Assembly (NCBI GenBank): GCA_019119045.1
Contig: DWXS01000022.1
Coordinates: 1 to 57,162, forward strand
Source: Candidatus Mailhella merdavium
GTDB taxonomy: Bacteria; Desulfobacterota; Desulfovibrionia; Desulfovibrionales; Desulfovibrionaceae
Direction of reading: 5' to 3'
Length of the DNA: 57,162 nt
The first letter of the stretch is position 1. Every line of letters starts with the position of its first letter. Made by a program: the position numbers and the translations under genes. Under the pieces are notes generated by a model. It had not been told where the DNA came from. It did not search any database and saw nothing but the letters and a program-made list of their open reading frames with translations. This document shows positions 1 through 55,146 of this stretch, one piece after another.

Positions 1-539
1 TTTGTCGCTGGCGAGACTGGGGAATCTGGGAAAAAATTTTTGCACAGTTGATGGAGATGGCGGATTTTGAATGGCTTCTGATAGATTCCAGTTACCGTAA
101 GATTCATCCGCATGCAGCGGGAACCTGCTGAGGCACTGAGACCATGAATCGTACAAAAAGGGGACTCTACACCCAAATACATCTGGCCGTGGATGCACAT
201 GGTAGGTCGATCCGAGTTACTCTCACAGAGGCTAGTTATGCTGATATCCGAAAGACAATCAACTTATTGAAGGGGTAAATCCCCAGAGAGTCATTGTCGA
301 TAAAGTATATAACGCAGATTCTTTTCCTAGTTTTCTTTCTGAAGAGAAAATAGAGCTTGTTATTCCCCCAATCCGACGAAAGCACCTCTCACAAATCAAA
401 TATGATAAGTACTAATATAAGATACGTCATCTTATCGAAAATACATTTTTGCATTTAACAGGATGGCGATGGTTCGCAACACGATATACCAAACAAGCGA
501 CATTATTTTTGACAATAGGCCAAACTCGTTGTATTTAAT
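1..539 (+). pseudogene. Decayed IS5-family transposase (partial, 5' end outside window)
   Basis: Conceptual translation gives IS5-group transposase blocks in the right order but broken. Frame 3 from base 3 reads CRWRDWGIWEKIF then DFEWLLIDSSYRKIHPHAAG, stopping at about 129. It continues in the same frame with RTKRGLYTQIHLAVDAHGRS to a stop near 276. After a frameshift come VIVDKVYNADSF and ELVIPPIRRK, another stop near 413, then IRHLIENTFLHL and WRWFATRYTK, ending near 539. The catalytic Asp contexts (LLIDSS, LAVDAHG, VIVDK) and the final Glu (HLIENTF) are recognisable. At least two in-frame stops and one frameshift mean it cannot make an active enzyme. The left end lies beyond the window and I could not define terminal inverted repeats. 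Confidence 0.85.
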
Positions 540-729
540 ATAGTGGAAAATCTTGTGACGACACGCTCTAGCCTTGTTCTTTGAAAGATATCATCCCCTC
601 AGTCCCCACGTTCCTATGGTCAGACCTTGCAGCTCCGGCGCAATCGACGTATTGGCTCTGAGAAGGAAAATCACGACAAGCCGTCTGTTATGTTCCGAGT
701 GAAACAAGCCCGTTTTAAGGACGCAGTGC

Positions 730-1197
730 ATGAAAGCAGATGAACATATGGAATGTCTTTCCATCCCACGGGAAAAGGAAACGCTGGAGCAACTTCTTGC
801 CGTCTGGCAGAGTTCCGTACAGGCAACGCACCATTTCCTGAACGGGGAAGACATTACGGAGCTGCGTCCTTTCGTATGGCAGGCACTTAAGGAAATCCCC
901 CTGCTCCATGCAATTTGTGAGGCAGGGGGGAAACGAGTCGGTTTCATGGGGGTTCAGGCAGACAGGCTGGAAATGCTCTTTCTGCATCCGCAGGTTTGCG
1001 GCAGAGGACTCGGTACGCACATGCTCGCATTTGCCGTGAAGGAACTTGGTGTCCGCAGACTTGATGTCAACGAACAGAATCCCGCCGCGCTGAAATTCTA
1101 TCTGAGCCGGGGATTCCGCGTGACGGCGCGTTCTCCACTGGACAGCCAGGGAAAGCCCTGGCCAATCCTCCATATGGAGCTGAAGCAAAGTATCTGA
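730..1197 (+). CDS. GNAT-family N-acetyltransferase (YjaB-like)
   Basis: A 155-residue protein of the acetyl-CoA-dependent N-acetyltransferase (GNAT) fold. The acetyl-CoA loop is seen as HPQVCGRGLGTHM (around residues 95-107, R/Q-x-x-G-x-G/A pattern), followed by LDVNEQNPAALKFY and GFRVTAR, the usual beta5-alpha4-beta6 block. The N-terminal WQSSVQATHHFL and the C-terminal DSQGKPWPILHM are close to the E. coli YjaB type, a soluble acetyltransferase whose natural substrate is not firmly known. The start is supported by AAGGA eight bases upstream. It stands alone between the IS remnant and the convergent P-type ATPase cluster. Confidence 0.85.
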   Translation: MKADEHMECLSIPREKETLEQLLAVWQSSVQATHHFLNGEDITELRPFVWQALKEIPLLHAICEAGGKRVGFMGVQADRLEMLFLHPQVCGRGLGTHMLAFAVKELGVRRLDVNEQNPAALKFYLSRGFRVTARSPLDSQGKPWPILHMELKQSI

Positions 1198-1450
1198 GAA
1201 GACGCCGACAAGCCGGTTTCATGTCCGCACAGAGAGCCACGTATGGCCCGCATATCCTGCCTGACACGGAGTCTGGAACTGTTCGCCCGTTCTGAAGACA
1301 GCACGAGCTGATACCGAGAGCCTTTCTCTGCAACTTAATATGGAACAACGCAGGCCCCTCCTCATCAAAGAAAAAACCGGCGATGTTCCATTGAAAATAT
1401 TTCCTGAACGGTATGCAAGATCAGAAAAGAAGCTGTCGTTCGGCCACTCC

Positions 1451-1696
1451 TTATTCCATGCCTTCTTTCTTCCCTTCCGCACGGAAGCTGTTCAGCCATT
1501 CTCCAGCAGAGGCAAGCCCGCTCCGCACACATGTCCCTGCCTGCCGCAGTTCCTGCGGGAAAACCAGAGCGGCCGTCACAAGCCCCAGAACCATCAGGGT
1601 CAGGGTTCCCGCAAGCAGCGCCAGAGCGATTCCCGCCATACTAAGGCTAAGACACAGAGCCGCGCCGATCCTCATTCCTTCCGCAAGCCTTTTCAT
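1451..1696 (-). CDS. Small hydrophobic protein of the P-type ATPase cluster
   Basis: An 81-residue protein I do not recognise as a named family. After a short basic N-terminus (MKRLAEGMR) it has a continuous hydrophobic stretch of about 40 residues, enough for one long or two short membrane helices, then a polar amphipathic tail (SAGEWLNSFRAEGKKEG). It lies immediately after the HMA-domain gene on the same strand. The reading frame stays open to a GTG at 1720 that would overlap that gene, so the ATG at 1696 is a choice rather than a certainty. Position and size suggest an accessory membrane peptide of the metal ATPase system, an inference from context only. Confidence 0.5.
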   Translation of the reverse strand: MKRLAEGMRIGAALCLSLSMAGIALALLAGTLTLMVLGLVTAALVFPQELRQAGTCVRSGLASAGEWLNSFRAEGKKEGME

Positions 1697-1710
1697 AAAT
1701 TTCCCGCGCT

Positions 1711-2160
1711 TCACAAACACTTGCGGAATCTGGCCAGATGCAAGGCATTGAAGGCCAGAAACATGCAGCCAAAAAAGCCATGTACCGTTCCGCTTCCTGC
1801 AAGAATACCGGCTAGGGAGACCCCAAGGCTGAAGAGCATCCCTCTGTTTTCCAGCCTGCGCGACACTATCCGTCCAAGCTTTGAGCCGGACAAGTGCCGC
1901 GCCTTCTCCTGTGTCCCGTCAAATTCCAGCCCGAGAATCTGCCGAAGCTCTTCCACAAAAGCAAGCAGATGCAGGGAACTCAGCAGTTCGGAATCATACT
2001 CCAGCAGCAGCGATCCCGTTCGAGAATTTATATGCGCGCTGAACACGCCCTGCCTGGCTTCCAGAACTGACCTGACTTTCTCCCCTGTAGCTCTATTTTT
2101 CAGCATATCATGGCGGATGCGTACCCTTCCCGGCGTCATGCTGCGAATATATTCCCTCAT
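1711..2160 (-). CDS. HMA2-like domain protein
   Basis: A 149-residue protein. The first 75 residues have the ferredoxin-like fold pattern of a heavy-metal-associated (HMA_2) domain: TPGRVRIRHDML, then VFSAHINSRTGSLLLEYD. The CxxC metal ligands of true HMA domains are absent, as in the N-terminus of the ATPase upstream. The last 45 residues (GMLFSLGVSLAGILAGSG and FGCMFLAFNALHLARF) are hydrophobic and probably form a membrane hairpin. Its ATG overlaps the stop of the ATPase gene (ATGA, 2157-2160), so the two are translationally coupled. Likely a regulatory or docking partner of the ATPase; whether it binds metal is unknown. Confidence 0.75.
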   Translation of the reverse strand: MREYIRSMTPGRVRIRHDMLKNRATGEKVRSVLEARQGVFSAHINSRTGSLLLEYDSELLSSLHLLAFVEELRQILGLEFDGTQEKARHLSGSKLGRIVSRRLENRGMLFSLGVSLAGILAGSGTVHGFFGCMFLAFNALHLARFRKCL

Positions 2161-4253
2161 GTTTCCGCTCCTTCTGAGTATCTGCCTTCACCTTGCGGGA
2201 ACAGCGGACGCATGGCATTCAAACATACGCCCAGCGTTGTCAAATTATGCAATATCGCACTGCTGCCGGGCGACAGAATACCGACAAGACTCCCGACAAG
2301 ATAAAGACTGTTGAGGCCGACGGCCGCAGCAAAATTAAAATGCACACGATTCATGGTGCGTTTTCCGAGTTCCCTTGCCGCGACAAGTTCTCCCAAACTG
2401 CTCCGCGTCAATACCACATCCGCTACTTCACGGGCCAGATCCGCGCCATCCCGGAGCGTTATTCCGGCATCGGCGGCAGACAGCGCGGGAGAATCGTTGA
2501 TGCCGTCTCCGACCATTATGACACAATATCCGTCTGCTTTCAGATTCTTCACTATATCCGCCTTGTCGGCAGGAAGAACCTGAGAAAGGTATTCTTTTAT
2601 ATCCAGACAGCGGGCCACGGCAGCCGCACTGCCTTCATCATCTCCGGTCAGCATGAGGATGCGCGTTATGCCTTGCTCGCGCAGATGCTTTATGATTCCT
2701 GCCGATTCCGGACGCAAAGGATCTTCAATGCCGATAATACCGGCCAAATGTTCATCGATGGCCAGATACAGTATGGACTGTCCCTTCTCCGTCAGTCGGG
2801 CCGCCTCCGGCAGCATGGAGTCTACGCTGATCCCCTCATCCTGTTCGATATAGTGACGACTGCCGATGAAGACACGTTGCCCGCGCAGTGTCGAAGCTAT
2901 GCCGTGCGCCACAATATATTTTACTTCAGCATGTTCTTCCTGATGTTGAAGACGCTCCTCCTCCGCTCTGCGAACGACAGCCCGTGCCACGGGATGGGGA
3001 AAATGCTCCTCAAGGCAGGCCGCAAGACGGAGTACCTCTTCCCGCGTTCTCCCCCGTGCCGGAAGGACGTCGCCCACCCGAGGACGGGATTCCGTCAAGG
3101 TTCCGGTTTTATCAAAAATCACGGCATCCGCCTGAGCCAGCACCTCAAGGAAGCGTCCTCCTTTTATAAGCACTCCCCTTCCCGCTCCTTCGCGAATGGC
3201 CGTCAGAATGGCAAGCGGTGTGGCAAGTTTCAATGCACACGAATAATCCACCATGAGTACCCCGGCCGCCCGCATGGGGTTGCGGGTTGCCAGCAATACC
3301 AGAGCTGCCAGCAGAAAGGTAAAAGGAACCACAGCATCGGACAGTCGCTCCATTTTGCCCTGAATCCCGGCCTTACGGGCCTCCGACTCGTCAATAAAAC
3401 GCATTATCTGCTGAAAGCGGGTCTGCCGACCGACACCCGTCGGCTCAATGATAAGTTCTCCTTCTTCCACGGCCGTTCCGGCAAAGACAAAATTTCCAGG
3501 CGCACGCAGTACGCCGAGAGCTTCCCCCGTCATGTAGGCCTGGTTGACCGAGGCCTCCCCTTCCACAACTCTGCCGTCAACAGGAATGGCAGAGCCGGAA
3601 CGAACCACGACAAAATCTCCAGCCTGCAACTTGTCTATGGGAATATGTATTTCCTTCCCCTCTCGACGAACCCATATATTCGTCGCCGTAAGAGCCAGTC
3701 GTTCCGCCAGACTGCTCAAAGATTTCTTGCGTGTCCACGCCTCCAGCGATTCCCCGAAAGCCAGCAGCAACGTAAGCAGTCCGGCTGTCCCGAAATCGCG
3801 CATGACCAGAGATACGCCAATGGCTGCTGCATCCAGAACATCGGCATTCAAACGCCCTCCCAGCAGACTTTTTCCCCCTCTGAGCAAAAAGGGGACGCCA
3901 CGACGCAGCGCGCCGACGACACGCAGAGGAAGCGGCATAAAGGGGCGAAACAGAACGTAGCGAAGCAGCGGCAATACATCCGGCTTCTCCCTGCGACAGA
4001 TATCTTCCCGGCTTTGCTCCCCTGCCGGCGGCAGAGATGCCGGAGCGGCATCCAGCAGCGTCAGAGCGGCTTTGCGCGTTGCAGGAAGCGCATACAGAAG
4101 AAGAATACTGCCGGTGCGAGGGTTTACCCTCACACCTTCCATACCCGGCAGAGCATTCAAGCCGTCGGCAAGGCGTACTGCCATATTACGATTGAATACT
4201 CTGTTTGAACGAAGCCTGATCCGTCCCGGTAGTTCATGAACAATGCAAAACAT
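2157..4253 (-). CDS. P1B-type heavy-metal-translocating P-type ATPase
   Basis: About 698 residues. An N-terminal HMA-like domain (ELPGRIRLRSNRVF, VRVNPRTGSILLLY) lacks the CxxC pair. Then come the actuator TGE loop (YMTGEALGV), a membrane motif, the phosphorylation site DKTGTLTE, the P1B-specific HP dipeptide (HFPHPVARAV), and the hinge GDGINDSPAL. Where copper or zinc ATPases carry CPC or CPH, this one reads SCALKLATP. That places it in the P1B group with a Ser-Cys-Ala membrane motif, whose metal cannot be read from sequence. Such pumps export metals from the cytoplasm. ATG at 4253 has GGGGGA upstream; a TTG at 4271 is the only longer start. Leads the minus-strand cluster with the HMA2-like gene. 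Confidence 0.88.
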   Translation of the reverse strand: MFCIVHELPGRIRLRSNRVFNRNMAVRLADGLNALPGMEGVRVNPRTGSILLLYALPATRKAALTLLDAAPASLPPAGEQSREDICRREKPDVLPLLRYVLFRPFMPLPLRVVGALRRGVPFLLRGGKSLLGGRLNADVLDAAAIGVSLVMRDFGTAGLLTLLLAFGESLEAWTRKKSLSSLAERLALTATNIWVRREGKEIHIPIDKLQAGDFVVVRSGSAIPVDGRVVEGEASVNQAYMTGEALGVLRAPGNFVFAGTAVEEGELIIEPTGVGRQTRFQQIMRFIDESEARKAGIQGKMERLSDAVVPFTFLLAALVLLATRNPMRAAGVLMVDYSCALKLATPLAILTAIREGAGRGVLIKGGRFLEVLAQADAVIFDKTGTLTESRPRVGDVLPARGRTREEVLRLAACLEEHFPHPVARAVVRRAEEERLQHQEEHAEVKYIVAHGIASTLRGQRVFIGSRHYIEQDEGISVDSMLPEAARLTEKGQSILYLAIDEHLAGIIGIEDPLRPESAGIIKHLREQGITRILMLTGDDEGSAAAVARCLDIKEYLSQVLPADKADIVKNLKADGYCVIMVGDGINDSPALSAADAGITLRDGADLAREVADVVLTRSSLGELVAARELGKRTMNRVHFNFAAAVGLNSLYLVGSLVGILSPGSSAILHNLTTLGVCLNAMRPLFPQGEGRYSEGAET

Positions 4254-4347
4254 GATTCCCCCGGCAAACAATCCTAGACACTAGCGTGCAGCGCCGCAGG
4301 AACGACGCTGCACATTCGACGGAAACAATTCCGCCCCATACTCGACA

Positions 4348-4590
4348 TCAGGCTTTGTTTTCCCGCCGCTCTTCGGCGGCAACGCGCGCTTCGGCCACCA
4401 TGTCTTCCATATCCTCTTTAACGCCTTCCATCTTGGCAAGAACGGCATCCTTCATATCCATCCCGCGACTGAGCAGCTCCGTAGCAAAGGGTTTGATATC
4501 CAACTTCCCTCTGCTCACGGCAACAGCGCCGACGACTCCAAGAGTTACACCGCCCAAAAAAAACAAACCGTACTTCAGATTCTCGTTCAT
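4348..4590 (-). CDS. DUF6110/YtxH-like small membrane-anchored protein
   Basis: An 80-residue protein: short polar start (MNENLKYG), one membrane helix with GxxxG spacing (LFFLGGVTLGVVGAVAVS), then a charged helical tail (MEGVKEDMEDMVAEARVAAEE) likely to form a coiled coil. This matches the DUF6110/YtxH type, small proteins often found beside Ser-Cys-Ala P1B ATPases together with HMA2 proteins. The start has AGAGGTG upstream. It is the first gene of the minus-strand metal ATPase cluster, about 95 bases before the ATPase. Function unknown; an ATPase accessory role is inferred from neighbourhood. Confidence 0.7.
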   Translation of the reverse strand: MNENLKYGLFFLGGVTLGVVGAVAVSRGKLDIKPFATELLSRGMDMKDAVLAKMEGVKEDMEDMVAEARVAAEERRENKA

Positions 4591-5011
4591 GGCACACCTC
4601 TTTTGAAGTTTGACAACAAATATTCAGCATGAATACGCCGAGCCGTTTTCTCGCCTGTCCGGATAATGACAAAGCTGACGACATGAACACTCAGATAGTT
4701 ATCCGCAACATTCAGACAGAAGGCGGCAAAGGCTGCTGTAAAACTTTGGGCGACCCGCAGGAGACAGGCCCGACCCACCTGTCGTATATTCCTGCGGACC
4801 GCCCTCGACAGGAAGGGGTATTCCCTTCGTCAGACGGTTTTCCTGTCACGGACTGCGCGGGGGAGGAGGACAAAACCCGCTCATTCCGTCCATTCCACTG
4901 CCGGGACTGCATGCGGACAGTCCGTATCGGCATACGCTGAACCGTCTCAATTCATCATGACGTCTTCCTGAACATCAGCTTGTTCTGCCTGAAAAAGGGA
5001 GAACACGCACG
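4591..5011. other. Intergenic region between feoB and the P-type ATPase cluster
   Basis: About 420 bases without a convincing gene. Open frames of 63-103 codons exist on both strands but lack ribosome binding sites and recognisable composition. The region must hold the promoter of the minus-strand ATPase cluster and any transcription end of feoB. I see no clear stem-loop with a T run after the feoB stop. Confidence 0.4.
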
Positions 5012-36005: not shown

Positions 36006-37190
36006 TTATCTGACGGGTTCGGCGTGGGCCGTAACTATACCCTGCCGTGAGGCCCAAAGTCCGACATCCTCCCTGCGGATGGCCGCAGCCATCATATCAG
36101 GAAAGAGATCGGGCGTGCAGGCAAAGGAAGGCATACCGAGCGCGGCCAGTTTGGCCGCCAGGGCCTTGTCGTAGAACGGACTTCCCTCATCGCTCAGAGC
36201 CAGAAGCGCGATGCACTGCACGCCGGATTCCACCAGTTCCGAGGTGCGCTGAAGCAGATTGCGCTCAACGCCTCCTTCGTACAGGTCTGAAATCAGCACG
36301 AAAATCGTGTTGCGCGGATCGCGGATCAGCGACTGACAATAACCCACGGCTCTATTGATATCCGTACCGCCGCCGAGCTGCACGCCGAACAGTATATCGA
36401 CGGGATCCTGCATTTCTTCCGTCAAATCGACCACGGAAGTATCAAAAACCACAAGGCGCGTCCTCACGGCGGGCAGAGACGCCATGACCGCGCCGAATAT
36501 GCTGGAATACACGATGGAATCGGCCATGGAACCGCTCTGATCGATGCACAGGATAATTTCCCGCTGCGGCGTTCTTGCCTTGCGTCCGAAACCGATCAGC
36601 GTTTCCGGAACAAGTGTGTGATATTCATCCTGCCAGTGGCGCAGATTCGCCCTTATGGTGCGATTCCAGTCTATTTCCGCATGACGCGGACGCCGGTTGC
36701 GCACAGCCCTGTTCAACGCGCCGCCGACCGCCGAGCGCAGCGGTTCCTCGAGCTTCCGCATCAGCTCATCCACAACCTTGCGGACGACAAGACGGGCCGT
36801 CTCTCTGGTCTTTGCGGGAATGACCCCGTTCATGGCCATCAGGGTCGAAACCAGATGCACGTCCGGCTGAATGGTCTCCAGCATTTCCGGCTGAAGCAGC
36901 ATATCCTTCAGATTCAGCCTGTCGAATGCGTCCCTCTGCATGGTCTGCACCACGCTGGAAGGAAAATATTTACGGATATCCCCCAGCCAGCGGGCCACGC
37001 GCGGAGAAGAGGCTCCGCTCCCCCCGCGCAGTCCGCCCCGGCCTTCGGGAGAATCGTACAGGGCTGCGAGCGCTTCGTTCATTTCCAGCTCTTCCGCGCT
37101 CAGTTTCACATCCTCGCAGACCTGCCGGGCCTCGTCGCCCAGAGCAAGCACCCAGCGCCGTATATGTTCCGGCTTACGGAGCGTTTCCAT
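36006..37190 (-). CDS. VWA-domain protein (YehP/CoxE-like)
   Basis: About 394 residues, soluble. The C-terminal half is a von Willebrand A domain with a complete MIDAS: DQSGSMAD, GGGTDINRAVG and LISDLYEGG. The N-terminal half is helical with RRPRHAEIDWNRTIRANLRH just before the VWA, as in YehP and CoxE-type proteins that pair with MoxR ATPases. Last gene of a five-gene minus-strand operon. The ATG at 37190 (METLRKPEHIRRW) is chosen because longer starts overlap the preceding gene. Likely binds a divalent metal and a client protein; function unknown. Confidence 0.85.
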   Translation of the reverse strand: METLRKPEHIRRWVLALGDEARQVCEDVKLSAEELEMNEALAALYDSPEGRGGLRGGSGASSPRVARWLGDIRKYFPSSVVQTMQRDAFDRLNLKDMLLQPEMLETIQPDVHLVSTLMAMNGVIPAKTRETARLVVRKVVDELMRKLEEPLRSAVGGALNRAVRNRRPRHAEIDWNRTIRANLRHWQDEYHTLVPETLIGFGRKARTPQREIILCIDQSGSMADSIVYSSIFGAVMASLPAVRTRLVVFDTSVVDLTEEMQDPVDILFGVQLGGGTDINRAVGYCQSLIRDPRNTIFVLISDLYEGGVERNLLQRTSELVESGVQCIALLALSDEGSPFYDKALAAKLAALGMPSFACTPDLFPDMMAAAIRREDVGLWASRQGIVTAHAEPVR

Positions 37191-37216
37191 ATGCGTCCCA
37201 TCCCAAACGTTCGCAA

Positions 37217-39619
37217 TTACCCGACCTGTTCCCCTGCCAGACCCAGAACCCGGCGCAGAAACGGCAGGGGCAGAGCCGCCCTTTCTTCGTCCCACGACTC
37301 CGCATGACTATGGCCGGCAGAAGGAGCAGCAGCACGCCGGGAGCGTTCCGCCAGCTGACGACGTTCCGGAGCGGAAAAGGCAGTAAAGGTTCGTCTCAGC
37401 AGGGGAAGAACATGAATGAAATGTTCCTCGGAAAGTCCGCCCAGCCAGGCGTCCACCAGCCCCCAGAGAGTTTCGTCATGCAGAAGCAGCATCGCGCTCC
37501 GCCCGAGAAAGGCTTCCAGCCAGCCTGCGGATTCCGCCGGAACCGCAGCGCAGGAAAGTTCCATCCCCATATGCGTTGCCGCATCCTCTGCGGAAAGTAT
37601 CTGCCCGTCGAACAGAAGACGGACGGCCTGCCCTCTCAGAACGGCATGTACGCCGCTTTCCGCAGTTGTGATGCGGCGCAGCGCCTGAAGCCACGTTTCC
37701 TTAAGTTCCCGATCGCCGACAAGCTGTATGGCCGCATGTGCCTCCTGAATCGGTTTGTGCAATGCAGCGGAACTTTCTTCATTCAGCCCGGAGCAGGCCG
37801 AATGCAGGCCGACGGCCGCACGCGGAATCATTTCCCGCAGCACTTCCTCCACCATGGCGGAATCCGTACCCCGCACGTCGCCGTATCGAGCCACGCGCGC
37901 CAGTTCCGGTATGGTCTCCAGCAGCTGAACCGTATCCGTCGTCAGGGCGGCCATTTCCCCCAGAGAGCGGACCAGACCGCTGATCGCCGCGGGCATGTCC
38001 GCCAGCAGCGCGGCGTCCACAAGACGGGCAAGCTCGGGAAGTCCGGCCTCCTGCGCCTGCTCCAGCACGCGCGCCGTCGCCGCTTCCTCAACCGTATTAC
38101 CCCAGCGGCCTGCATTGATGAGCTGCACCAGCAGATGGGGTTCCCATTCCATTGTCCATAGTTCGTGGAATGTGCCCTTGCCTCTTCCTTCCGAAGTCAG
38201 AGTTCCCCAGTCGATATCCAGCAGACGCAATCTGTGGAGTAAATGACTGCGTTCCAAATCCGTGGGCTTGCGTAAATCGAGATCCAGTGTTTTCCGCAGG
38301 GCCTCCTGCTTCATACGCAGCCGCTTTTTCTGCTTCTCAAAATCCCTCTGGAGCGGAATGGCGGGCACGCCGTCCGGCACGCTTCCCATGCGGTCGCCGG
38401 TGATGAGCCGTCTGCCGATCAGGCGCAGAGGCAGGGGATCCCCCATGCAGACCACACTCTGAAGCGATTCGTACAGTTCGGGAAGACCGGCATGCGGTCT
38501 GTCGCGCAGCGCGGCCAGCGTTACGGCCAGCCGGGCCGCTTCGATGACATGCGCCGGCGAGCAGTCAAGATCTTCCTGACGGAACAGGTGCGCCGCTTCG
38601 GTCAGCCAGCCCAGAACCCGCTGCTCCGCGTTCGCGCTCCGCCACAGGTGTTCGTACCATGCAGGAGAATACACGCCGGCGCCGTAGCCCCCGGAGCGGG
38701 TCAGCGCGGCATAGGTCCAGGGCGCCCAGGTGGCGGCCGTTTTGACGGAAGGCAGCCCCCGGAGCAAGGCGTTGTCTTCCCCCGCAGGGGGCATATCTTC
38801 CAGTGCGGGCACATGCCATGCCCCGCACACGACGGCAATACGGCCGAACGCTTCCTTCCGTGCCTGCCGGAGGCATTTGCGCATATGAGCTTCGCGCAGA
38901 GCCTCTTCCTTTTCCTCGTCCGGCGTGCGCCTGCGTCCCGGAGCCTCCCTGCGGATGGTGGTCATGGCTTCCCGTATGGCCTCGAAAAGCTCCAGACCGT
39001 CCGCCCGCTCCTCCACCATGTGATTCCACCAGCTCTCGCCGTTTTCATAGCCTGCGGCACGCCCCAGCCAGTCCAGAGGATCGGCGTAATCGAAGTCTTC
39101 GTCCCCGGCCTCTTCAGATTCCCCGTCGGATTCCCCGCAGGACTCCTCCCCGGCCTCCGCTTCGGACGCTTCTGCTGCGGAATCCGGGTCGGATACTCCG
39201 GAAGAAACGTCGTCCTCGCTTTCTTCCTCCCCTTTTTCCTCAGGGTTCTCCTCGTTCAGGGCGGCCAGACGCTCTTCCCGCTCCCTGTCCAGACCAAACT
39301 GGACGGCAACGGGCAAATCCATAAAGCGCACGGCTATACCCTTGCTCAACCCGTAACGCAGAGCCTGCCACTCCGGTGAAAACTCGGCAAAGGGATAGAA
39401 GACCACGCGGCGGGACTCGTCCTCCGCATAGAGTACCAGAGCGACGGGAGGCTCCATGTCCGGAGAGAGTACAAAGGGCAGAAGCGCGTCTCCTTCCGGA
39501 GGCCCTTCCAGCAGCAGACAGTCCGGCTGCCACTCCTCAAGAGCCGCAAGCAGGCTCCGGGCGCATCCCGGCCCGTGATGCCGGATACCGAAAATGCGGA
39601 TTTGCGAGGAATGTTTCAT
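37217..39619 (-). CDS. DUF5682 family protein (YehM-like)
   Basis: An 800-residue protein of unknown function. N-terminus RIFGIRHHGPGCARSLLAAL with LLLEGPPEGDALLPF is the family signature and recalls TraB/ChaN-type folds. Residues about 145-205 are a very acidic, Ser/Glu/Asp-rich linker. Then comes EALREAHMRKCLRQARKE with VVCGAWHVPAL, and a long helical C-terminal half. It starts two bases after the MoxR stop. Its neighbours (MoxR ATPase, VWA, SWIM) match the E. coli yehLMPQ set, where YehM is the counterpart in size. No enzymatic activity can be assigned. Confidence 0.75.
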   Translation of the reverse strand: MKHSSQIRIFGIRHHGPGCARSLLAALEEWQPDCLLLEGPPEGDALLPFVLSPDMEPPVALVLYAEDESRRVVFYPFAEFSPEWQALRYGLSKGIAVRFMDLPVAVQFGLDREREERLAALNEENPEEKGEEESEDDVSSGVSDPDSAAEASEAEAGEESCGESDGESEEAGDEDFDYADPLDWLGRAAGYENGESWWNHMVEERADGLELFEAIREAMTTIRREAPGRRRTPDEEKEEALREAHMRKCLRQARKEAFGRIAVVCGAWHVPALEDMPPAGEDNALLRGLPSVKTAATWAPWTYAALTRSGGYGAGVYSPAWYEHLWRSANAEQRVLGWLTEAAHLFRQEDLDCSPAHVIEAARLAVTLAALRDRPHAGLPELYESLQSVVCMGDPLPLRLIGRRLITGDRMGSVPDGVPAIPLQRDFEKQKKRLRMKQEALRKTLDLDLRKPTDLERSHLLHRLRLLDIDWGTLTSEGRGKGTFHELWTMEWEPHLLVQLINAGRWGNTVEEAATARVLEQAQEAGLPELARLVDAALLADMPAAISGLVRSLGEMAALTTDTVQLLETIPELARVARYGDVRGTDSAMVEEVLREMIPRAAVGLHSACSGLNEESSAALHKPIQEAHAAIQLVGDRELKETWLQALRRITTAESGVHAVLRGQAVRLLFDGQILSAEDAATHMGMELSCAAVPAESAGWLEAFLGRSAMLLLHDETLWGLVDAWLGGLSEEHFIHVLPLLRRTFTAFSAPERRQLAERSRRAAAPSAGHSHAESWDEERAALPLPFLRRVLGLAGEQVG

Positions 39620-39621
39620 GT

Positions 39622-40731
39622 TCAGTCCACCGCACGACAGGCCCGGTACAGATCTTTCCAGTCGCCGCGTTCCTTCATGACCGTTTCCAGATATTCATGC
39701 CATACCACGCTGTCCTGCACGGGATCCTTGACTATGGCCCCCACCAGACCGGCGGCAATATCTGCGGCGCGCAGCGCGCCGTCACCGAAGTGAGCGGCAA
39801 GCGCCATGCCGCTGTTGACGACGGAAATGGCTTCCGCGGTACTCAGCGTTCCGGAAGGCGATTTGACCCGGGTTTTTCCGTCTTCGGTCTTGCCGTTGCG
39901 CAGCTCTCGGAATATGCGCACCACACGGCGCACTTCTTCCAGCGCGGGCGGTTCGGCGGGAAGTTCCAGAGCGCGCCCCATTTCCGCAACACGCTTGGCG
40001 ACAATGCTGACTTCTTCCTCTTCCGAAGCAGGCACGGGCAGCACCACGGTATTGAAGCGCCGCTTGAGGGCGGAGGAAAGTTCATTGACGCCCTTATCCC
40101 TGTTGTTGGCCGTGGCAATGACGTTGAAGCCGCGCAAGGCCTGAACCTCATCATTCAGTTCGGGAATGGGCAGCGTCTTTTCCGACAGGATGGTAATCAG
40201 CGTATCCTGCACGTCGGCTGGTATGCGGGTCAGCTCTTCCACACGGGCAATGCGCCCTTCCGACATGGCCCGCATCAGCGGGCTTTCCACCAGAGCCGAA
40301 CGGGACGGCCCCTTGGAAAGCAATTCCGCATAATTCCAGCCGTAGCGCATCTGCTCCTCACTGGTGCCCGCCGTCCCCTGAATAATCAGTGTGGAATCGC
40401 CGCTGATTGCGGCCGCAAGATGCTCGGACACCCAGGATTTGGCTGTTCCGGGCACGCCGTACAGCAGCAGGGCGCGATCCGTGGCAAGCGTCGCCACGGC
40501 TATTTCGATGATACGCCGGTTGCCGATGTATTTCGGGCTTACTTCAAAGCCGTTTTCCAGCTTTCCCCCCATAAGATAGGTACATACCGCCCACGGGGAC
40601 ATCTCCCAGTGAGCAGGACGCTGGCGGGTGTCGTTTTTTTTCAGCTCTTCCAGTTCTTCGGCAAACTGCTGTTCGGCATGACGGCGCAGGACATCGGACG
40701 TTCCGCCGTCTTTTTCGTGTGGTGTACTCAT
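39622..40731 (-). CDS. MoxR-type AAA+ ATPase (YehL-like)
   Basis: About 369 residues. AAA+ core: Walker A GVPGTAKS, Walker B with RVEELTRIP, sensor 1 NVIATANNRD, arginine finger SSALKRRFN, sensor 2 region. A preceding block (MGGKLENGFEVSPKYIGNRR) is specific to this subgroup. MoxR ATPases act as chaperones with VWA partners; the VWA gene is two genes downstream. The ATG at 40731 (MSTPHEKDG) is preferred to 40773, which nearly touches the upstream stop. Size matches E. coli YehL. Energy-supplying member of the cluster. Confidence 0.9.
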   Translation of the reverse strand: MSTPHEKDGGTSDVLRRHAEQQFAEELEELKKNDTRQRPAHWEMSPWAVCTYLMGGKLENGFEVSPKYIGNRRIIEIAVATLATDRALLLYGVPGTAKSWVSEHLAAAISGDSTLIIQGTAGTSEEQMRYGWNYAELLSKGPSRSALVESPLMRAMSEGRIARVEELTRIPADVQDTLITILSEKTLPIPELNDEVQALRGFNVIATANNRDKGVNELSSALKRRFNTVVLPVPASEEEEVSIVAKRVAEMGRALELPAEPPALEEVRRVVRIFRELRNGKTEDGKTRVKSPSGTLSTAEAISVVNSGMALAAHFGDGALRAADIAAGLVGAIVKDPVQDSVVWHEYLETVMKERGDWKDLYRACRAVD

Positions 40732-40754
40732 GGATGTTTCTCGTATGGTTACAG

Positions 40755-42482
40755 TCAGGAAAAATAGGCGCACAGCGCACGGCGCCGCAGGACAATGACG
40801 GAAAATGCGGCCAGAGCCTCTTCAAGGTCGGGCCGCTCCCTTTCTTTGAAGGAAAGGGGGTGAGCGTTCTCATCCAGCATGTCGGCAGGCAGAAGCTGCG
40901 CCAGTTCCGTCAGAATTCCGCCCAGTTCGTAATCTCTGTTCTTCCGGGACAATCTGATCCGCAGCACATCGAAAATCCGCTGTGCAAATTCCCGGGACAT
41001 GACGTAGTCCTCCCCTTCCGGAGCCAGGGCCTTTGTCAGCATGGGCACGAGATTTTCCGGGGTAAGCCGCCGAACACGTTCTTTTTCCCTCTCTTCGGGC
41101 AAAAGCAGACATAAAAGATCCATCTGATCAAGATCGCGCCTGACCGCACATTCCCATATTCCGCCGCAGGCCAGCATGGCGCGCGCCCAGTCCGGATCAG
41201 GATCGCGGATCAGCGCGTCGCCCCAGGCGCACCTGATCGCGTTTTTCCATTCCGAATGTTCCGTCAGGGCTATCAGTTCTTCCGGCGTTCTGCCCGTATG
41301 CTTCGTCCACCAGGAGAGCGGAACGCTCACGGCCATCCGATACAGCCAGAACGCACGCGGGCCGAATGCCTTGATTGTCGATTTTTCGCCGATGAGATCG
41401 GCCGCCCAGGAAGCATCATAGCTCTCAGGCGGAGCAAAGAACTCCCTTGCATCCGAGCGCAGTTGCGGATCGGCTTCAGACTTGAACGCGTGTTTCATAC
41501 GGGCGAGCAGCCCTTCCCCCGCACGGGCCGCAGAGCGATTGCCCGACAGACGGCCGAACAGGCCGGCAGTGTGCCGCAGCTCCCCGCCGTGATTCCTTTG
41601 CATGGGATCGGCTTCAGGCTCAAGCGCGTGCTTCATGCAGGCAAGCAGACGTTCACCCATGCGGGCCACATAGCGACTGTCCGGCAGACGGGCAAGCAGA
41701 TCGGCCGCAGTGTGTCGCACGTCCCTACTGCGATCCGTGCGCAGCAGATCCTCCAGAACGTCTTCATCCTCCATGCTCAGCCCTGTGGAAAAAAGAGACA
41801 GCATGGTATTGCGCTCCGCTGCATCCATGCTTTTCATATCCTGAAGAAAAAGCTCGCGGGCCTGCCCCGGATTCTCCTCACGCGCCCCCAGAAAATAGGC
41901 CTGACGCTGCGCCGGGCGTCCATGTTCCCAGGCTTCAGGGTTCAGTTCTCCTGTCGTAGATACGGCAAAAAGGTTCCAGTCAGGATTAAGCGACGCCAGC
42001 CACAGGCCCCGTTCTCCGATGACCCGGGCCAGAAGAGGACGGAGGGAACGGTTCACTCGCCCCAGATTCAAGGCCGCAACAAGCAACGAAGGGGGAAGAA
42101 CCGTGCCCCGTGCGTCAAGATAGCGCAAACTCTCCCTTTGAAGCCGGACATTCTTCTCGCTGAAGATGGTGCGATACAGTTCCGTAACGGCGTCCCTTTC
42201 GGGAAGCATGGGGCGATCCTCATGAGGACAGGGCGGAGGAAGCATCACATCCTCGACATTCAGGGCGGAAGGAAGATAGCCTGCCTGTCCGCAGACGAAC
42301 AGTACGCCCGCCCCACGCAGCAGACGCAGCTCATCGCTCTCCTTGTCAGCCTCCGCAGAGGCAGGCACGGCAAGTTCTCCCAGCATCTGCCCGCACGGTT
42401 CGTCCGAAACGGGAAGTTCCGGAGTCCTTCTGGACGTGCCGAGCAGAGCCTGTACGCCAAGCAGTTGCAGTGCAGAAGTCAT
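40755..42482 (-). CDS. DUF5691 family helical-repeat protein
   Basis: A 575-residue, mainly helical protein with HEAT-like character, found with MoxR/VWA/SWIM clusters and assigned to DUF5691 by context and composition. Residues about 256-297 and 303-343 are a recent tandem duplication (see the repeat entry). Conserved-looking stretches: YFLGAREENPGQARELFLQ and MSREFAQRIFDVLRIRLSRKN near the end. It overlaps the SWIM gene by four bases (ATGA) and ends about 23 bases before the MoxR start, so the operon is tightly coupled. Function unknown; probably a scaffold or client-binding subunit. Confidence 0.7.
   Translation of the reverse strand: MTSALQLLGVQALLGTSRRTPELPVSDEPCGQMLGELAVPASAEADKESDELRLLRGAGVLFVCGQAGYLPSALNVEDVMLPPPCPHEDRPMLPERDAVTELYRTIFSEKNVRLQRESLRYLDARGTVLPPSLLVAALNLGRVNRSLRPLLARVIGERGLWLASLNPDWNLFAVSTTGELNPEAWEHGRPAQRQAYFLGAREENPGQARELFLQDMKSMDAAERNTMLSLFSTGLSMEDEDVLEDLLRTDRSRDVRHTAADLLARLPDSRYVARMGERLLACMKHALEPEADPMQRNHGGELRHTAGLFGRLSGNRSAARAGEGLLARMKHAFKSEADPQLRSDAREFFAPPESYDASWAADLIGEKSTIKAFGPRAFWLYRMAVSVPLSWWTKHTGRTPEELIALTEHSEWKNAIRCAWGDALIRDPDPDWARAMLACGGIWECAVRRDLDQMDLLCLLLPEEREKERVRRLTPENLVPMLTKALAPEGEDYVMSREFAQRIFDVLRIRLSRKNRDYELGGILTELAQLLPADMLDENAHPLSFKERERPDLEEALAAFSVIVLRRRALCAYFS
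41454..41717 (-). repeat. Internal tandem duplication in the DUF5691 gene
   Basis: Two copies of about 47 codons in the same frame. Copy 1 has RHTAADLLARLPDSRYVARM then GERLLACMKHALEPEADP. Copy 2 has RHTAGLFGRLSGNRSAARAG then EGLLARMKHAFKSEADPQ. The copies are close enough to suggest a recent event but have diverged by substitutions. Confidence 0.75.
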
Positions 42483-43807
42483 GCCTTTCCCCCTTCCTCC
42501 GCAGGACGGACAAAAGCCCCGGCGATTTTCAGGCGTTCATCCTCCCATTCTCCGCAGACAAAAAGCCTCTGCCCTCCGCTTTCAGCCAGCAATTCCCAGG
42601 CTTCGGCATCCGTCATGTCCAGAGAAAGGCCCTGCCCTGCATCCGTAAGCAGCATCCAGTCCTCGCCCCGGCGGCAAAGGCGCGCTCCGTCAAAAACCAG
42701 GGGCAAAGGCTCCTGCCAGGGATTGGCGGCACGCAGCCGGGCCATACGTTCCAGAGCCGCGCCAAAAGAACAGTCCGCCGGAAAGACCATCTGCTCGTCT
42801 GACGCCGCAGATTCGATATCTCCGCATGAAACAGCCCGCAGCGGGGCGGCACCGGGATAAAAGGCAAGAACCATATGCAGACTTTCACCCGGTGAAAAGA
42901 CGCGCTCAAACTGCCTATTGCCGTGCGAAAAATCCAGCAGCAGAGCCATGCGTCCGCTCTCTCTGCCGTACAGCCAGACCCGCCTTCTCCACAACTTTTC
43001 TTCCTCTGCAAAGGTCACGCCGAACACCTGCCAGATATCTTCGACGCGATCCGGGCCTGCCATGACCTCATCCTTTCCCGGAGCAAATCCGAGGGCCGCC
43101 CGGACATCCTCCTGCTCTGGAAGAGACAGCCTGCCTCTGTTGCGGAAGGCATCCGCCATGAGCTGCAAACGGCCAAGCCGCCCCAGCAGAAGCCCTGCCT
43201 GTTCGGCATTTCCGCTTCCGACTTTCCCGAGACTTCTCAGCTGTGCGGCCATGCCCTGGGCCTGTGCATCCACCATGCGCGCGGCCAGTTTATCCCATAC
43301 GTCATACTGTTCGGAAAGCTGAGACAAGCCCTGCCGGATCTGATCCCCCATCCAGCGTTCCAGCTCCTCCAGCCCGTCCTGCATTCGGAGCAGACGGGTC
43401 TGTTCCCGTTTTCCGTCGGATCCGGAAGAAGCCTTCGCCCGCGTATTCGCGCTTTCCTTGCGCGCCTCCTGCTTTGCGGCGCGCTGCCTGCGGGCGTCGA
43501 GCCACTCCTCCAGCCATTCAGGGCGGGGAGCAGTGAACAGATCAGGATGCTGAGTCAGCAGCAGAAGCAGCGCAAGCGCATGTTTGCAGGGAATCTTGCG
43601 ACTGGGGCAGGAGCAGGAACAGACGAGGCCTGCACGCTCGATCTTCACCTGATAAGGCTTGGAACCGCTCCCCTGACAGGCGCCCCACACGGCTTCCTCA
43701 TCAACTCCGAGGAGCGGCCATTTCCCCGGTGAAACAAGTCCTCTGGCGGCCTTGACCGAAGCCTCGTCCGGAGCCATGGCAACAACGGCATCGACACTTA
43801 TTTCCAT
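42479..43807 (-). CDS. SWIM zinc-finger protein (YehQ-like)
   Basis: A 442-residue protein. The SWIM finger is at residues 65-76 (CSCPSRKIPCKH, CxC...CxH) within AGLVCSCSCPSRKIPCKHAL; a basic, Ala/Lys/Arg-rich linker follows, then a long helical and beta region with no catalytic motif. SWIM domains bind nucleic acid or protein. First gene of the operon; its stop overlaps the DUF5691 start. E. coli YehQ has the same finger and the same neighbours. Confidence 0.85.
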   Translation of the reverse strand: MEISVDAVVAMAPDEASVKAARGLVSPGKWPLLGVDEEAVWGACQGSGSKPYQVKIERAGLVCSCSCPSRKIPCKHALALLLLLTQHPDLFTAPRPEWLEEWLDARRQRAAKQEARKESANTRAKASSGSDGKREQTRLLRMQDGLEELERWMGDQIRQGLSQLSEQYDVWDKLAARMVDAQAQGMAAQLRSLGKVGSGNAEQAGLLLGRLGRLQLMADAFRNRGRLSLPEQEDVRAALGFAPGKDEVMAGPDRVEDIWQVFGVTFAEEEKLWRRRVWLYGRESGRMALLLDFSHGNRQFERVFSPGESLHMVLAFYPGAAPLRAVSCGDIESAASDEQMVFPADCSFGAALERMARLRAANPWQEPLPLVFDGARLCRRGEDWMLLTDAGQGLSLDMTDAEAWELLAESGGQRLFVCGEWEDERLKIAGAFVRPAEEGGKA

Positions 43808-43936: not shown

Positions 43937-44866
43937 TCATCGCGCATGACTGCGCAGAAAGTCCCGGATGGCGGCATATATGCCCTTTGCATCAGGAACG
44001 GTCGGGATATCCGCGGAAGCCGGATTAAAATTGTGTTCCGCCCCGGTCACGATCAGTTCCGGCCAGTCCAGCCCCAGCAGGCGGGCATGAGCGGCCGTTT
44101 CCCGGGACTGATCTCCGGGAACAAAGGTATCCGCGGTACCGCAGACCACCATGCAGGGAGAACTGGACTCCGATACATAAGTGCGCGGGCTTGCCTTCCG
44201 CTGAAGCTCTGCATCATAAAGATGTTCCGGGGAAAGAAGACAGCGCAGACAATGAAGAAAACGTCCGTCGCCGTTGGCCTGAACCTTGCCCTCCGCCTCG
44301 ACGACGCAGCGGGGCACATCCAGCACGCCGGAACAGGCCACAGCCGCAGCAATGTCGAAACTCACATCCGCAAGCTCCGGCGCGTTCTCTCTATCACGCC
44401 ATTTGTCCCGTTCGCAGGCCAGCATGGCCGACGCATATCCCCCGGCTGACGTTCCGACAACAAAGAGATTATGTCTGTCCACTCCGTATTCATCCGCATG
44501 TCGAACCAGAAAACGGAAAGCGTCGCAACAGTCGTACAGCTGTTCGGGAAAAGGTGCCCCTTCCGGATATTTGCGATATTCCACCGAGGCGATGAGCCAG
44601 CCGTCTTCCAGCAGGGTTTCCCTCCCCATGAAGTGCATGTACCACGCGGGCAGACCTTCGCGCTTCGTCTGGTGACACCAGCAACCGCCATGAATAAGCA
44701 TGATCAGCGGAACTTTACCCCTTCCGCGCCCCTTCGCCCGATACAGATCGAGCTTCATGGGGAATATGCTCCCGGCTTCGTCGCGCACCTGCTTGTACAC
44801 AATATCTTCAACACACTCCACGCCATCGGGAATACGCAGCTGACTCATAGTTTCATTATCCTTCAT
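43937..44866 (-). CDS. Alpha/beta-hydrolase (esterase/lipase, BD-FAE type)
   Basis: A 309-residue hydrolase. Oxyanion motif HGGCWCHQ, nucleophile elbow GTSAGG (Ser), Asp in VCGTADTFVP, His in GAEHNF. This is the carboxylesterase class related to feruloyl/xylan esterases. No signal peptide is seen, so it acts in the cytoplasm. The ATG at 44866 and one 18 bases downstream are both weakly supported. It lies 130 bases upstream of the SWIM gene on the same strand and divergent from the lipoprotein gene; whether it belongs with the MoxR cluster is unclear. Substrate unknown. Confidence 0.85.
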   Translation of the reverse strand: MKDNETMSQLRIPDGVECVEDIVYKQVRDEAGSIFPMKLDLYRAKGRGRGKVPLIMLIHGGCWCHQTKREGLPAWYMHFMGRETLLEDGWLIASVEYRKYPEGAPFPEQLYDCCDAFRFLVRHADEYGVDRHNLFVVGTSAGGYASAMLACERDKWRDRENAPELADVSFDIAAAVACSGVLDVPRCVVEAEGKVQANGDGRFLHCLRCLLSPEHLYDAELQRKASPRTYVSESSSPCMVVCGTADTFVPGDQSRETAAHARLLGLDWPELIVTGAEHNFNPASADIPTVPDAKGIYAAIRDFLRSHAR

Positions 44867-53663: not shown

Positions 53664-55013
53664 CTATATTTTTTTGAGCAGCGCATCAACGACATCAGCA
53701 AAAGCTTTTCTTCCATCAATATACAGCTCTCCGCTTACCAGCAGATTATCAAGCAGCGAAACTCTGCGTCGAGAAGAAATAAGCAGCCCCTGACGAACCT
53801 TTTCGGCCAGATGTTCCAACCCTATATAAAGGCGCTCTCTGTCCGTATATAAGTAATCATACCAGGCATTGGCGCATGTCAGTCTGATGTCCGACGCAAG
53901 CTGCCCGATATTTGCGGCACATTCATAAAAGCAGAGAGCCTGCATCACATCGGTGTTCAGAAAAATCGGCGTATCAACATTCCTTGCCTCCTGCCAGATA
54001 AAACCGAGAATGAGGTTGACACGTTCTTCAAAGCTCCGTTCTCCCAGAGGAGGCAAGACAATCTGCATGGGAATGCGGCGCAAAAATGTGGCAAGCATGC
54101 TTTCCGTCGGATTTTCTGTCGTAGCGCCGATAATCAGGACATTGGCCCTGCGGGGGGCTTTCGCTTCCCCCAGTCTGGAAAAGACACCCTGATCCATGAG
54201 CAGAAAAAGCTTCTCCTGACCTTCCGGATTCAAGCGATGAATTTCATCAAGAAAAAGTATTCCTTCGTGTGCCCGTTCCACCAGTCCCGGCTGATCGCGA
54301 TCCGCCCCCGTATAGGCACCTCTCACATAACCAAAGAGCTGAGACAGCAGCAGCTGAGGGTTATCGGCATAGTTTGCACAATTAAGCGTAATGAATGCAG
54401 CATGTTTCGGCCTTACTCCGCTTTTAAGCGCAAAGTCGTACATACAACGGGCAAACTGACTTTTTCCTGTCCCGGTTGCTCCGGTGATCAGCGTATGTAA
54501 TCCGGCAGGAGGATACAGCATAGCCGCTTTGGCCTGTTTAATAAGAGGAGCGAGGCTATGTTCCGCGCCTATGAGATTGTCGAATGTCGAAGGCTCCCGC
54601 AAACGAAGATAAGGAGTCCCATGTCGAGGACTCCCCTGCCCTTCTGCCTGTTTTCCAGAATCTTCCGAAAAAGCCGGGGAGCGAACCTCTTCTCCCCCGG
54701 ACTTCTCCATTCCTAAAAAAGATAGAAACTCCTGCATGGTAAAATTCGTAACGGAAACCGATCTTCCAAGCAGCGTTTCCAGATGAGAAAGCGAAAGGTA
54801 ATAGGAAGGTCTCCCGCTGATCTTAACCAGCACCCCCGAGCGATACAGCAAATTCAGTTCAGTACTTGCATTGTTGGGAGCAACAGCGGCTTTTTCAGCC
54901 AGAGCACGCAAGGAAAGCGACGCCAGAGCCTCTTTTCCGCCTTCAGGCCTGAAGGCCAGCGTTGCCTCTGTAAGTATCTTCAAGATCTTTGCTGCACGCT
55001 TACGCTCTTTCAT
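53664..55013 (-). CDS. LevR-like sigma-54-dependent activator (short form)
   Basis: About 449 residues. N-terminal winged helix (LSLRALAEKAAVAPNNASTE), then an AAA+ sigma-54 domain: Walker A GATGTGKS (178-185), the loop GYVRGAYTGADRD, Walker B LFLDEIHR (253-260), LRRIPMQIVLPPLGERS. The loop has Tyr in place of Phe of GAFTGA. The helix-turn-helix at the N-terminus and LFGY motif are LevR/ManR traits, but PTS regulatory (PRD/EIIA) domains are missing, so control must differ. ATG at 55013 has AAGGGG upstream. Divergent from the cyclodeaminase gene, which has a -24/-12 promoter. Confidence 0.87.
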   Translation of the reverse strand: MKERKRAAKILKILTEATLAFRPEGGKEALASLSLRALAEKAAVAPNNASTELNLLYRSGVLVKISGRPSYYLSLSHLETLLGRSVSVTNFTMQEFLSFLGMEKSGGEEVRSPAFSEDSGKQAEGQGSPRHGTPYLRLREPSTFDNLIGAEHSLAPLIKQAKAAMLYPPAGLHTLITGATGTGKSQFARCMYDFALKSGVRPKHAAFITLNCANYADNPQLLLSQLFGYVRGAYTGADRDQPGLVERAHEGILFLDEIHRLNPEGQEKLFLLMDQGVFSRLGEAKAPRRANVLIIGATTENPTESMLATFLRRIPMQIVLPPLGERSFEERVNLILGFIWQEARNVDTPIFLNTDVMQALCFYECAANIGQLASDIRLTCANAWYDYLYTDRERLYIGLEHLAEKVRQGLLISSRRRVSLLDNLLVSGELYIDGRKAFADVVDALLKKI

Positions 55014-55034
55014 GAGACCCCTTTTCAAGAATAT

Positions 55035-55047
55035 TCTTATAATAAGA
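55035..55047. promoter_or_regulatory. Palindrome, possible activator binding site
   Basis: TCTTAT-A-ATAAGA, a perfect 6+6 dyad about 100 bases upstream of the -24/-12 promoter, a usual distance for a sigma-54 enhancer. A looser pair, AATCTTTT (55086-55093) and AAAAGATT (55124-55131), lies between. Neither has been tested. Confidence 0.4.
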
Positions 55048-55146
55048 CGATTATATTCTCGACCTTGTAGTGTCAAGGAATATTTAATCTTTTATTTTTC
55101 ATATGATACAGATTTTTATCTAAAAAAGATTCTATTATATACTTTT

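Follow-up and report, generated by a model that had tools for sequence, protein, structure and literature searches.

We analysed a 57,162-nucleotide (nt) stretch of DNA from Candidatus Mailhella merdavium (contig DWXS01000022.1; hereafter the window), in which five genes lie on the minus strand at positions 36006-43807. In order, they encode a 442-amino acid (aa) SWIM protein (42479..43807; Pfam SWIM, PF04434, E 6.3e-8), a 575-aa DUF5691 protein (40755..42482; PF18944, E 2.4e-103), a MoxR-type AAA+ ATPase (39622..40731; AAA_5, PF07728, E 8.8e-39), an 800-aa DUF5682 protein (37217..39619; PF18934, E 2.3e-256) and a VWA_CoxE protein (36006..37190; PF05762, E 3.5e-50). All five Pfam matches were over the cut-off. 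A sequence-only reading of the window had described five tightly spaced genes of these families on one strand, and both the open reading frame (ORF) coordinates and the profile searches it had called for bore this out. The SWIM and DUF5691 genes overlap by 4 nt, and 2 nt separate MoxR from DUF5682. With ATG starts at 40731 for MoxR and 37190 for VWA, the DUF5691/MoxR and DUF5682/VWA gaps are 23 and 26 nt, respectively; with the listed GTG starts at 40773 and 37295, the genes overlap at both junctions. The two ATG codons are probably the real starts, because the resulting protein lengths match those of homologues.

A scan using the window DUF5682 protein as query yielded 75 related loci. By tblastn, all five genes were found on one strand at 63 of the 75 loci, a co-occurrence that exceeds chance. 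Under a stricter ORF-based rule, strand and order were kept at 60 of the 75; L004, L008 and L047 missed this rule solely because ORF picking had dropped one gene, which tblastn did show. The SWIM and DUF5691 genes overlapped by 4 nt at 39 of 64 loci, as did DUF5691 and MoxR at 30 of 64. Contig ends truncate four of the 12 loci without a gene (L028, L037, L042 and L060). Another, L055, is truncated after DUF5682, and an unrelated gene precedes its MoxR gene. In tblastn searches, L029 gave no match to VWA and L070 none to SWIM. Neither SWIM nor DUF5691 is present at L011, where DUF5691 lies on another contig of the same genome.

The remaining four loci, all from Competibacteraceae (L051, L052, L054 and L065), hold DUF5682 and VWA alone. 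A close MoxR gene was found elsewhere in three of these four genomes, located after SWIM-DUF5691 in L156 and L157 and after DUF5691 in L158. The arrangement thus amounts to a split into SWIM-DUF5691-MoxR (L156 and L157) and DUF5682-VWA (L051 and L065), with the genome retaining both halves. L157 together with L065 is the clearest true split, because L156 runs into the end of its contig shortly past MoxR, and L052 likewise begins where a contig does.

The nearest relatives of the window DUF5682 protein came from Mailhella and other Desulfovibrionaceae. We also surveyed a sample of 299 Pseudomonadota genomes, including its centre, G253, which was known beforehand to carry the cluster. DUF5682 scored over the cut-off in 12 of the 299 genomes, which together have 13 loci of full length. 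Six of these scored 658-899 bits and are here called the window form; the other seven, at 328-372 bits, make up the sister form. MoxR adjoined DUF5682 at all 13 loci and VWA at 12, L137 reaching a contig end first. SWIM and DUF5691 adjoined DUF5682 at five of the six window-form loci, the sixth being that of G253. At the sister-form loci, the neighbour was DUF4132 in six of seven cases, and a small SWIM profile found the sister-form SWIM protein at two of the seven; none of the six window-form loci in this sample gave a match to DUF4132. DUF5691 was over the cut-off in six genomes, exactly those with window-form DUF5682, and two more DUF5691 matches, both below the cut-off, occurred in genomes without DUF5682. 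Because the two sets of genomes coincide, DUF5691 is a standard member of the window form and not the extra gene that the earlier reading had proposed. Among 247 Desulfobacterota genomes, seven had a DUF5682 match: that of the window itself, G202 with a sister form, and five in which the match was partial. Both forms occurred together in 4 out of 42 genomes.

The sister form is that of the Escherichia coli yeh operon, whose order in K-12 is yehI (DUF4132), yehK, yehL, yehM, yehP, yehQ. The window carries MoxR, DUF5682, VWA and SWIM together, as do yehLMPQ-type operons, and MoxR, DUF5682 and VWA stand in the same order in both, with identities of 41% (MoxR/YehL), 24% (DUF5682/YehM) and 34% (VWA/YehP). 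The E. coli-type DUF5682 protein shares the key residues conserved in the window form. The two forms differ in that E. coli has DUF4132 (yehI) where the window form has DUF5691, and its SWIM gene sits at the opposite end, without detectable homology to the window SWIM protein beyond the motif. Comparison of the SWIM protein with YehQ gave no BLAST match at E 1 and a profile probability of 4%. The likeness to yehLMPQ suggested from the sequence therefore stands for the MoxR/YehL, VWA/YehP and DUF5682/YehM kinship and is not supported for orthology of SWIM and yehQ or for DUF5691 as an add-on. We also considered DUF5691 as a homologue of DUF4132 and rejected this (profile probability 0.2%). Plasmids of Iodobacter, Sinorhizobium and Agrobacterium carry the sister-form families in varied order. 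One E. coli conjugative plasmid (L091, 1-15980) holds a yehI-yehR region resembling that of the chromosome, close to an IS26-family element, and MoxR, DUF5682 and VWA are also present at 166-4876 of a 14-kb unverified "Bacteriophage sp." record (L093), which may be bacterial DNA. YehL is a named subfamily of MoxR ATPases in the sections of PMC3893208 consulted. Our literature search found no function for the yeh operon and, with subscription papers and preprints outside its scope, no paper mentioning DUF5682 or DUF5691; among the matches listed for MoxR with TraB, TIKI or chaperone, nothing concerned this system.

In a DUF5682 tree built by a quick method, with long branches flagged and 9 of the 92 rows left out, the five E. 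coli-type rows were well apart from the window form (support 100), and a divergent Streptomyces row, its branch very long, fell in another part of the tree. The window, Mailhella and Bilophila rows fell among those of Pseudomonadota, with successive supports of 95, 89 and 98. Because the window branch is nested in this way, the tree suggests horizontal gain of the cluster in the window lineage.

Gene fusions were found at two junctions. DUF5682 and VWA form a single protein in Streptomyces atratus, as recognized by Pfam, and in Streptomyces sp. NBC_00984, whose protein is 99% identical to it. In Hymenobacter sp. HDW8, one ORF holds a homologue of the SWIM protein first (35% identity to that of the window) and DUF5691 second; the Pfam SWIM model was not reported for this ORF at E 0.01. 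This SWIM-DUF5691 fusion comes from one Hymenobacter record, and the annotation of a similar region in H. radiodurans shows two ORFs that overlap, with further genes split in that record as well. The conserved order, overlapping junctions and fusions agree with the earlier proposal that the five genes act as a unit.

MoxR and VWA residue numbers are counted from GTG 40773 and GTG 37295, respectively. The window MoxR has the Walker A motif GVPGTAKS, E179-E180 at the Walker B position, where the first residue is usually Asp, and R238-R239. G106, P108-K112, E179, E180, N223, R238 and R239 were conserved at 0.99 or above in 81 sequences from both forms. Its closest E. coli protein was YehL (41%, 234 bits), with no BLAST match to RavA at E 1. 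Within its own genome, where the comparison took in the three longest ORFs of nine out of 45 AAA_5 loci, its best match scored 27 bits. With YehL as its closest E. coli protein and the motif residues kept, the window MoxR fits the YehL subfamily. The VWA protein carries a MIDAS motif, DxSxS, at D252-S256, and D252, S254, S256 and T286 were conserved at 0.99 or above in 85 sequences. The pairing of MoxR with a VWA partner, noted from the sequence, was supported. The SWIM zinc ligands C65, C67, C74 and H76 were invariant in all 44 aligned rows (the window and 43 of the 70 loci with a SWIM match). DUF5691 matched HEAT_2 weakly (E 0.054) and is possibly made of helical repeats.

In DUF5682, the N-terminal domain (residues 1 to ~330) appears, from structure prediction and profile comparison, to be TraB/TIKI-like, a relationship proposed here for the first time. 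We delimited it as residues 1-332 (38624..39619, minus strand) from a model, fold matches, profile comparison and alignment. The model of the full protein (mean pLDDT 87.1) has a mixed alpha/beta N-terminal domain and a C-terminal helical-repeat arm. Because repeats swamped the whole-protein search, we modelled the N-terminal domain alone (pLDDT 83.5). The first of its 29 matches in BFVD was a TraB family protein (probability 1.00, E 1.1e-3; the next match had E 0.51). Of 108 matches in the PDB, ranks 1-3 were chains of a Tetrahymena complex IV subunit (E 0.054, 1.1 and 1.2) named TraB family protein (7w5z with 8b6h, and 8bqs), and the TIKI protein HopBA1 came at rank 22 (E 4.1). A 66-row DUF5682 profile that included diverse homologues, with L003, L009 and L044 each present twice, matched a profile of 30 TraB sequences with a probability of 68% (E 4.7e-5). 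Profiles of six unrelated families gave 0.09-0.50%.

The profile alignment pairs DUF5682 H14 and E38 with the His of the TraB GxxH motif and a Glu. H14, E38, D101, R242, E243 and H269 were invariant in all 50 rows of a close DUF5682 alignment (the window and 49 of the 75 loci) and all 18 rows of a second alignment picked for diversity; the Gly of the first GxxH was kept in 48 of the 50 and 16 of the 18 rows. In the TraB alignment (22 of the 30 loci), the first GxxH His was present in 19 rows, with gaps in three, and R261, G284 and H287 were invariant. R242 and H269 of DUF5682 are 27 residues apart, compared with 26 for TraB R261 and H287. In the DUF5682 model, H14, E38, D101 and H269 lie 1-3 residues past strand ends. 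The invariant His, Glu, Arg and His suggest an active site. Cleavage by RRSP, a TIKI endopeptidase, needs two His and two Glu, and also a basic residue, perhaps for substrate recognition (excerpts of PMC6254334); DUF5682 offers two His, one Glu and one Arg. Five Desulfobacterota proteins of ~600-720 aa (L079-L083) match DUF5682 over its first 80-90 positions only and represent a possible separate TraB-like family. One of them, L079, matched DUF5682 at E 5.4e-10 and TraB_PrgY_gumN at E 0.18 and may bridge the two families.

A TraB/TIKI-like domain in DUF5682 is a pointer towards client cleavage. The computations directly gave a conserved unit with either of two adaptor sets, the gene fusions, and a fold and motif predicted for DUF5682. 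With these we tentatively propose, at somewhat less than an even chance, that the cassette is an ATP-driven client-processing machine: MoxR and VWA would bring a client to a TIKI-like hydrolase, with SWIM and DUF5691 serving as adaptors. The MoxR AAA+ ring and the MIDAS-bearing VWA protein would grip and remodel the client, as in other MoxR/VWA pairs, while the helical-repeat arm of DUF5682 would dock onto this engine. The client would then be threaded through or presented to the TIKI-like site of DUF5682 and hydrolysed there, most likely at a peptide bond. SWIM, with its zinc knuckle, and DUF5691 would form the client-selecting side, a role that DUF4132 and a different SWIM protein would fill in the E. 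coli-type form. The wider claim, that this is a new class of ATP-dependent proteolytic or hydrolytic machine, with a MoxR/VWA engine feeding a TIKI-family site, in several phyla and in E. coli yehLMP, is on the doubtful side.

Several results weigh against this proposal. The top 50 matches of the whole-DUF5682 fold search were repeat or unrelated proteins alone, and the fold matches of the N-terminal domain were weak in absolute terms (TM 0.25-0.28 in the PDB, with rmsd 12.6 for the best, and TM 0.30-0.44 with rmsd 14.0 in BFVD; rmsd 12.6-14.7 over the TraB and HopBA1 matches). With the 50 close homologues alone, the probability of the match to TraB was 17% (E 1.5e-3); the DUF5682-TraB alignment covers 41 residues; and searching the PDB with a profile built from 18 DUF5682 proteins turned up no relatives. 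The TraB Glu was readable in 12 of the 22 rows, being Glu in all 12, with gaps in the rest, and the first Glu of the RRSP ExH motif has no counterpart in DUF5682, which has I12 there. Some members of the superfamily are not proteases. One of them, ChaN, binds haem. PMT is without the motif (PMC6254334, in part). Separate loci for the two halves were seen in a few genomes, and no MoxR was found in the Competibacteraceae genome of L054. Also weighing against the proposal, both catalysis and the client are our inference; the same holds for how the arm docks and for which way the ATP-driven step runs.

Because characterised MoxR systems mature enzyme complexes, the chief rival is that MoxR and VWA insert a metal or cofactor into, or assemble, a client encoded elsewhere, as CoxD/CoxE and NorQ do, with the TraB/TIKI-like domain as an inert scaffold or cofactor holder. 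ChaN, which holds haem, is a model for the latter role. The VWA protein is CoxE-type by Pfam, the MoxR systems examined to date act in the maturation of protein complexes (sections of PMC3893208), and ChaN and the motif-less PMT belong to the TIKI superfamily (PMC6254334, in part). Against these stand the invariant His, Glu, Arg and His of DUF5682 (50/50 and 18/18 rows) and the flanking ORFs, among which, with noisy gene calling, no conserved client gene lay beside the cluster. The flanking ORF clusters present in at least four loci were antisense to the core, genus-bound or small groups, under the same noisy calling. We regard this rival as doubtful; cofactor insertion, as proposed from the sequence, is possible by analogy, yet the TraB/TIKI-like domain points instead to cleavage.

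The esterase gene at 43937-44866, which the sequence-only reading had offered as a possible client, is not supported in that role: it was unmatched in the flanks of seven Desulfovibrionaceae loci (E 1e-20), and we also rejected it as an operon member. The sole window ORF outside the cluster with a match in these flanks (E 1e-20) was an AAA-type ORF at 53664-55076, which is 37-40% identical to part of RtcR over 126-144 residues and is perhaps an ordinary sigma-54 activator. In Variovorax sp. OK212 (L034, 5706-9965), MoxR and DUF5682 are separated by an HSP90-like ATPase gene (Pfam HSP90, 7.4e-9) and a second gene, both in the same orientation.

The distribution of the cluster bears on another explanation, an anti-phage or other conflict system with a logic akin to that of MoxR-VWA ternary systems. 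Its presence is patchy (12/299 Pseudomonadota genomes), horizontal spread is probable from the nesting of the window branch, and copies on plasmids have a restriction system, transposases or a recombinase close by. The window SWIM protein also matched the PADLOC candidate PDC-S62 weakly over residues 14-107 (E 3.1e-5). Beyond that match and a weak one to IetA (E 1.1e-3), the window proteins matched no PADLOC defence model, and eight proteins of both forms from other genomes had no PADLOC match at E 0.01. Moreover, the window MoxR scored 23.7 against a cut-off of 27 for the bpMoxR model of ternary systems. Among the 100 of 233 flanking ORFs of at least 200 aa that we scanned, near 31 of the 75 loci, 15 PADLOC models were matched at E 1e-20, each by a single member and with no control set. 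We rejected a defence-island context on these scattered matches, subject to the same lack of a control set, and judge a conflict role decidedly improbable.

A further alternative is a damage response, in which the machine would take apart or process complexes of protein and nucleic acid once DNA or RNA has been damaged; the SWIM knuckle and the DUF4132-type parts would be its nucleic acid sensors. The links to such damage are leads only. E. coli yehF is preceded, at a distance of ~10 nt, by a LexA-like site, CTGGATAAAATTACAG (L077, 450-465), which is upstream of yehI and yehLMPQ; yehF appears with a modest change in an SOS gene table (PMC11002266, in part), and molR is included among SOS or LexA genes (extracts of PMC3978071 and PMC4576408). 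The Deinococcus DUF4132 protein DRA0166 is up with mitomycin C in an IrrE-dependent manner (extract of PMC8533742). However, LexA-like sites of that quality occur at chance level across the 26 kb of E. coli sequence concerned (8, with 7.5 expected), and scanning this sequence with a LexA consensus missed the yehF site. Upstream of the SWIM genes at 70 loci, we found one weak LexA-type match and no DdrO-type match, and the window has just a one-mismatch alpha-type match. Sigma-54 sites (three or fewer mismatches) were present at 13 of 69 loci compared with 15.9 in random windows, with no enrichment. We therefore rejected control of the window form by LexA, DdrO-type or sigma-54 sites.

RNA repair genes gave a second lead to damage: L039 and L050 carry genes for RtcR, RtcB, RtcA and an RlaP-like protein next to the cluster, and L016 carries RtcB alone. 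Yet RtcB was within 10 kb in 3 of 42 chosen genomes, a pattern spotted post hoc after viewing many families and without a proper control, and it was present in 5 of the 12 DUF5682 genomes compared with 74 of 299 overall in the Pseudomonadota sample. A link by genome content was rejected: RtcB occurred in 37 of the 42 chosen genomes, yet the 5/12 and 74/299 counts indicate that this is probably confounded by taxonomy. The RtcB tests covered 42 of the 75 loci, and Rtc genes were named by eye, with Pfam used for one RtcB and one RlaP. Near the window-type cluster, they lie at L039 993-5944, where RtcR ends ~75 nt before SWIM, L050 13401-21514 and L016 18208-19335; near the sister type, RtcB lies at L134 17849-19033. 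Taken as a whole, we consider a damage response improbable.

Returning to the client-processing machine, the exchange of DUF5691 for DUF4132 suggests one engine with interchangeable adaptor sets. The TraB/TIKI-like domain provides specific targets for mutation and an enzymatic activity to look for, also in E. coli K-12, and if it cleaves clients, bacteria would possess an ATP-dependent machine for processing that stands apart from the AAA+ proteases known at present. With CoxD/CoxE, RavA-ViaA and NorQ, the window system shares a MoxR ATPase and a VWA partner, the latter CoxE-type; it differs from them in its extra SWIM, DUF5691 and TraB-like subunits and in that, with noisy gene calling in the flanks, no conserved client gene was seen nearby. 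MoxR-VWA ternary conflict systems (VMAP, iSTAND; PMC7159879, in part) likewise combine MoxR and VWA with a third component; the text of that paper does not contain the words TIKI, TraB or WGR. By contrast, the third component in the window is TraB-like, and its MoxR falls below the bpMoxR cut-off. With the TraB/TIKI/Ere/ChaN superfamily, DUF5682 shares the predicted fold of residues 1-332 and the positions of His, Glu, Arg and His, but unlike that superfamily it is encoded within an AAA+ operon and bears a long helical-repeat arm.

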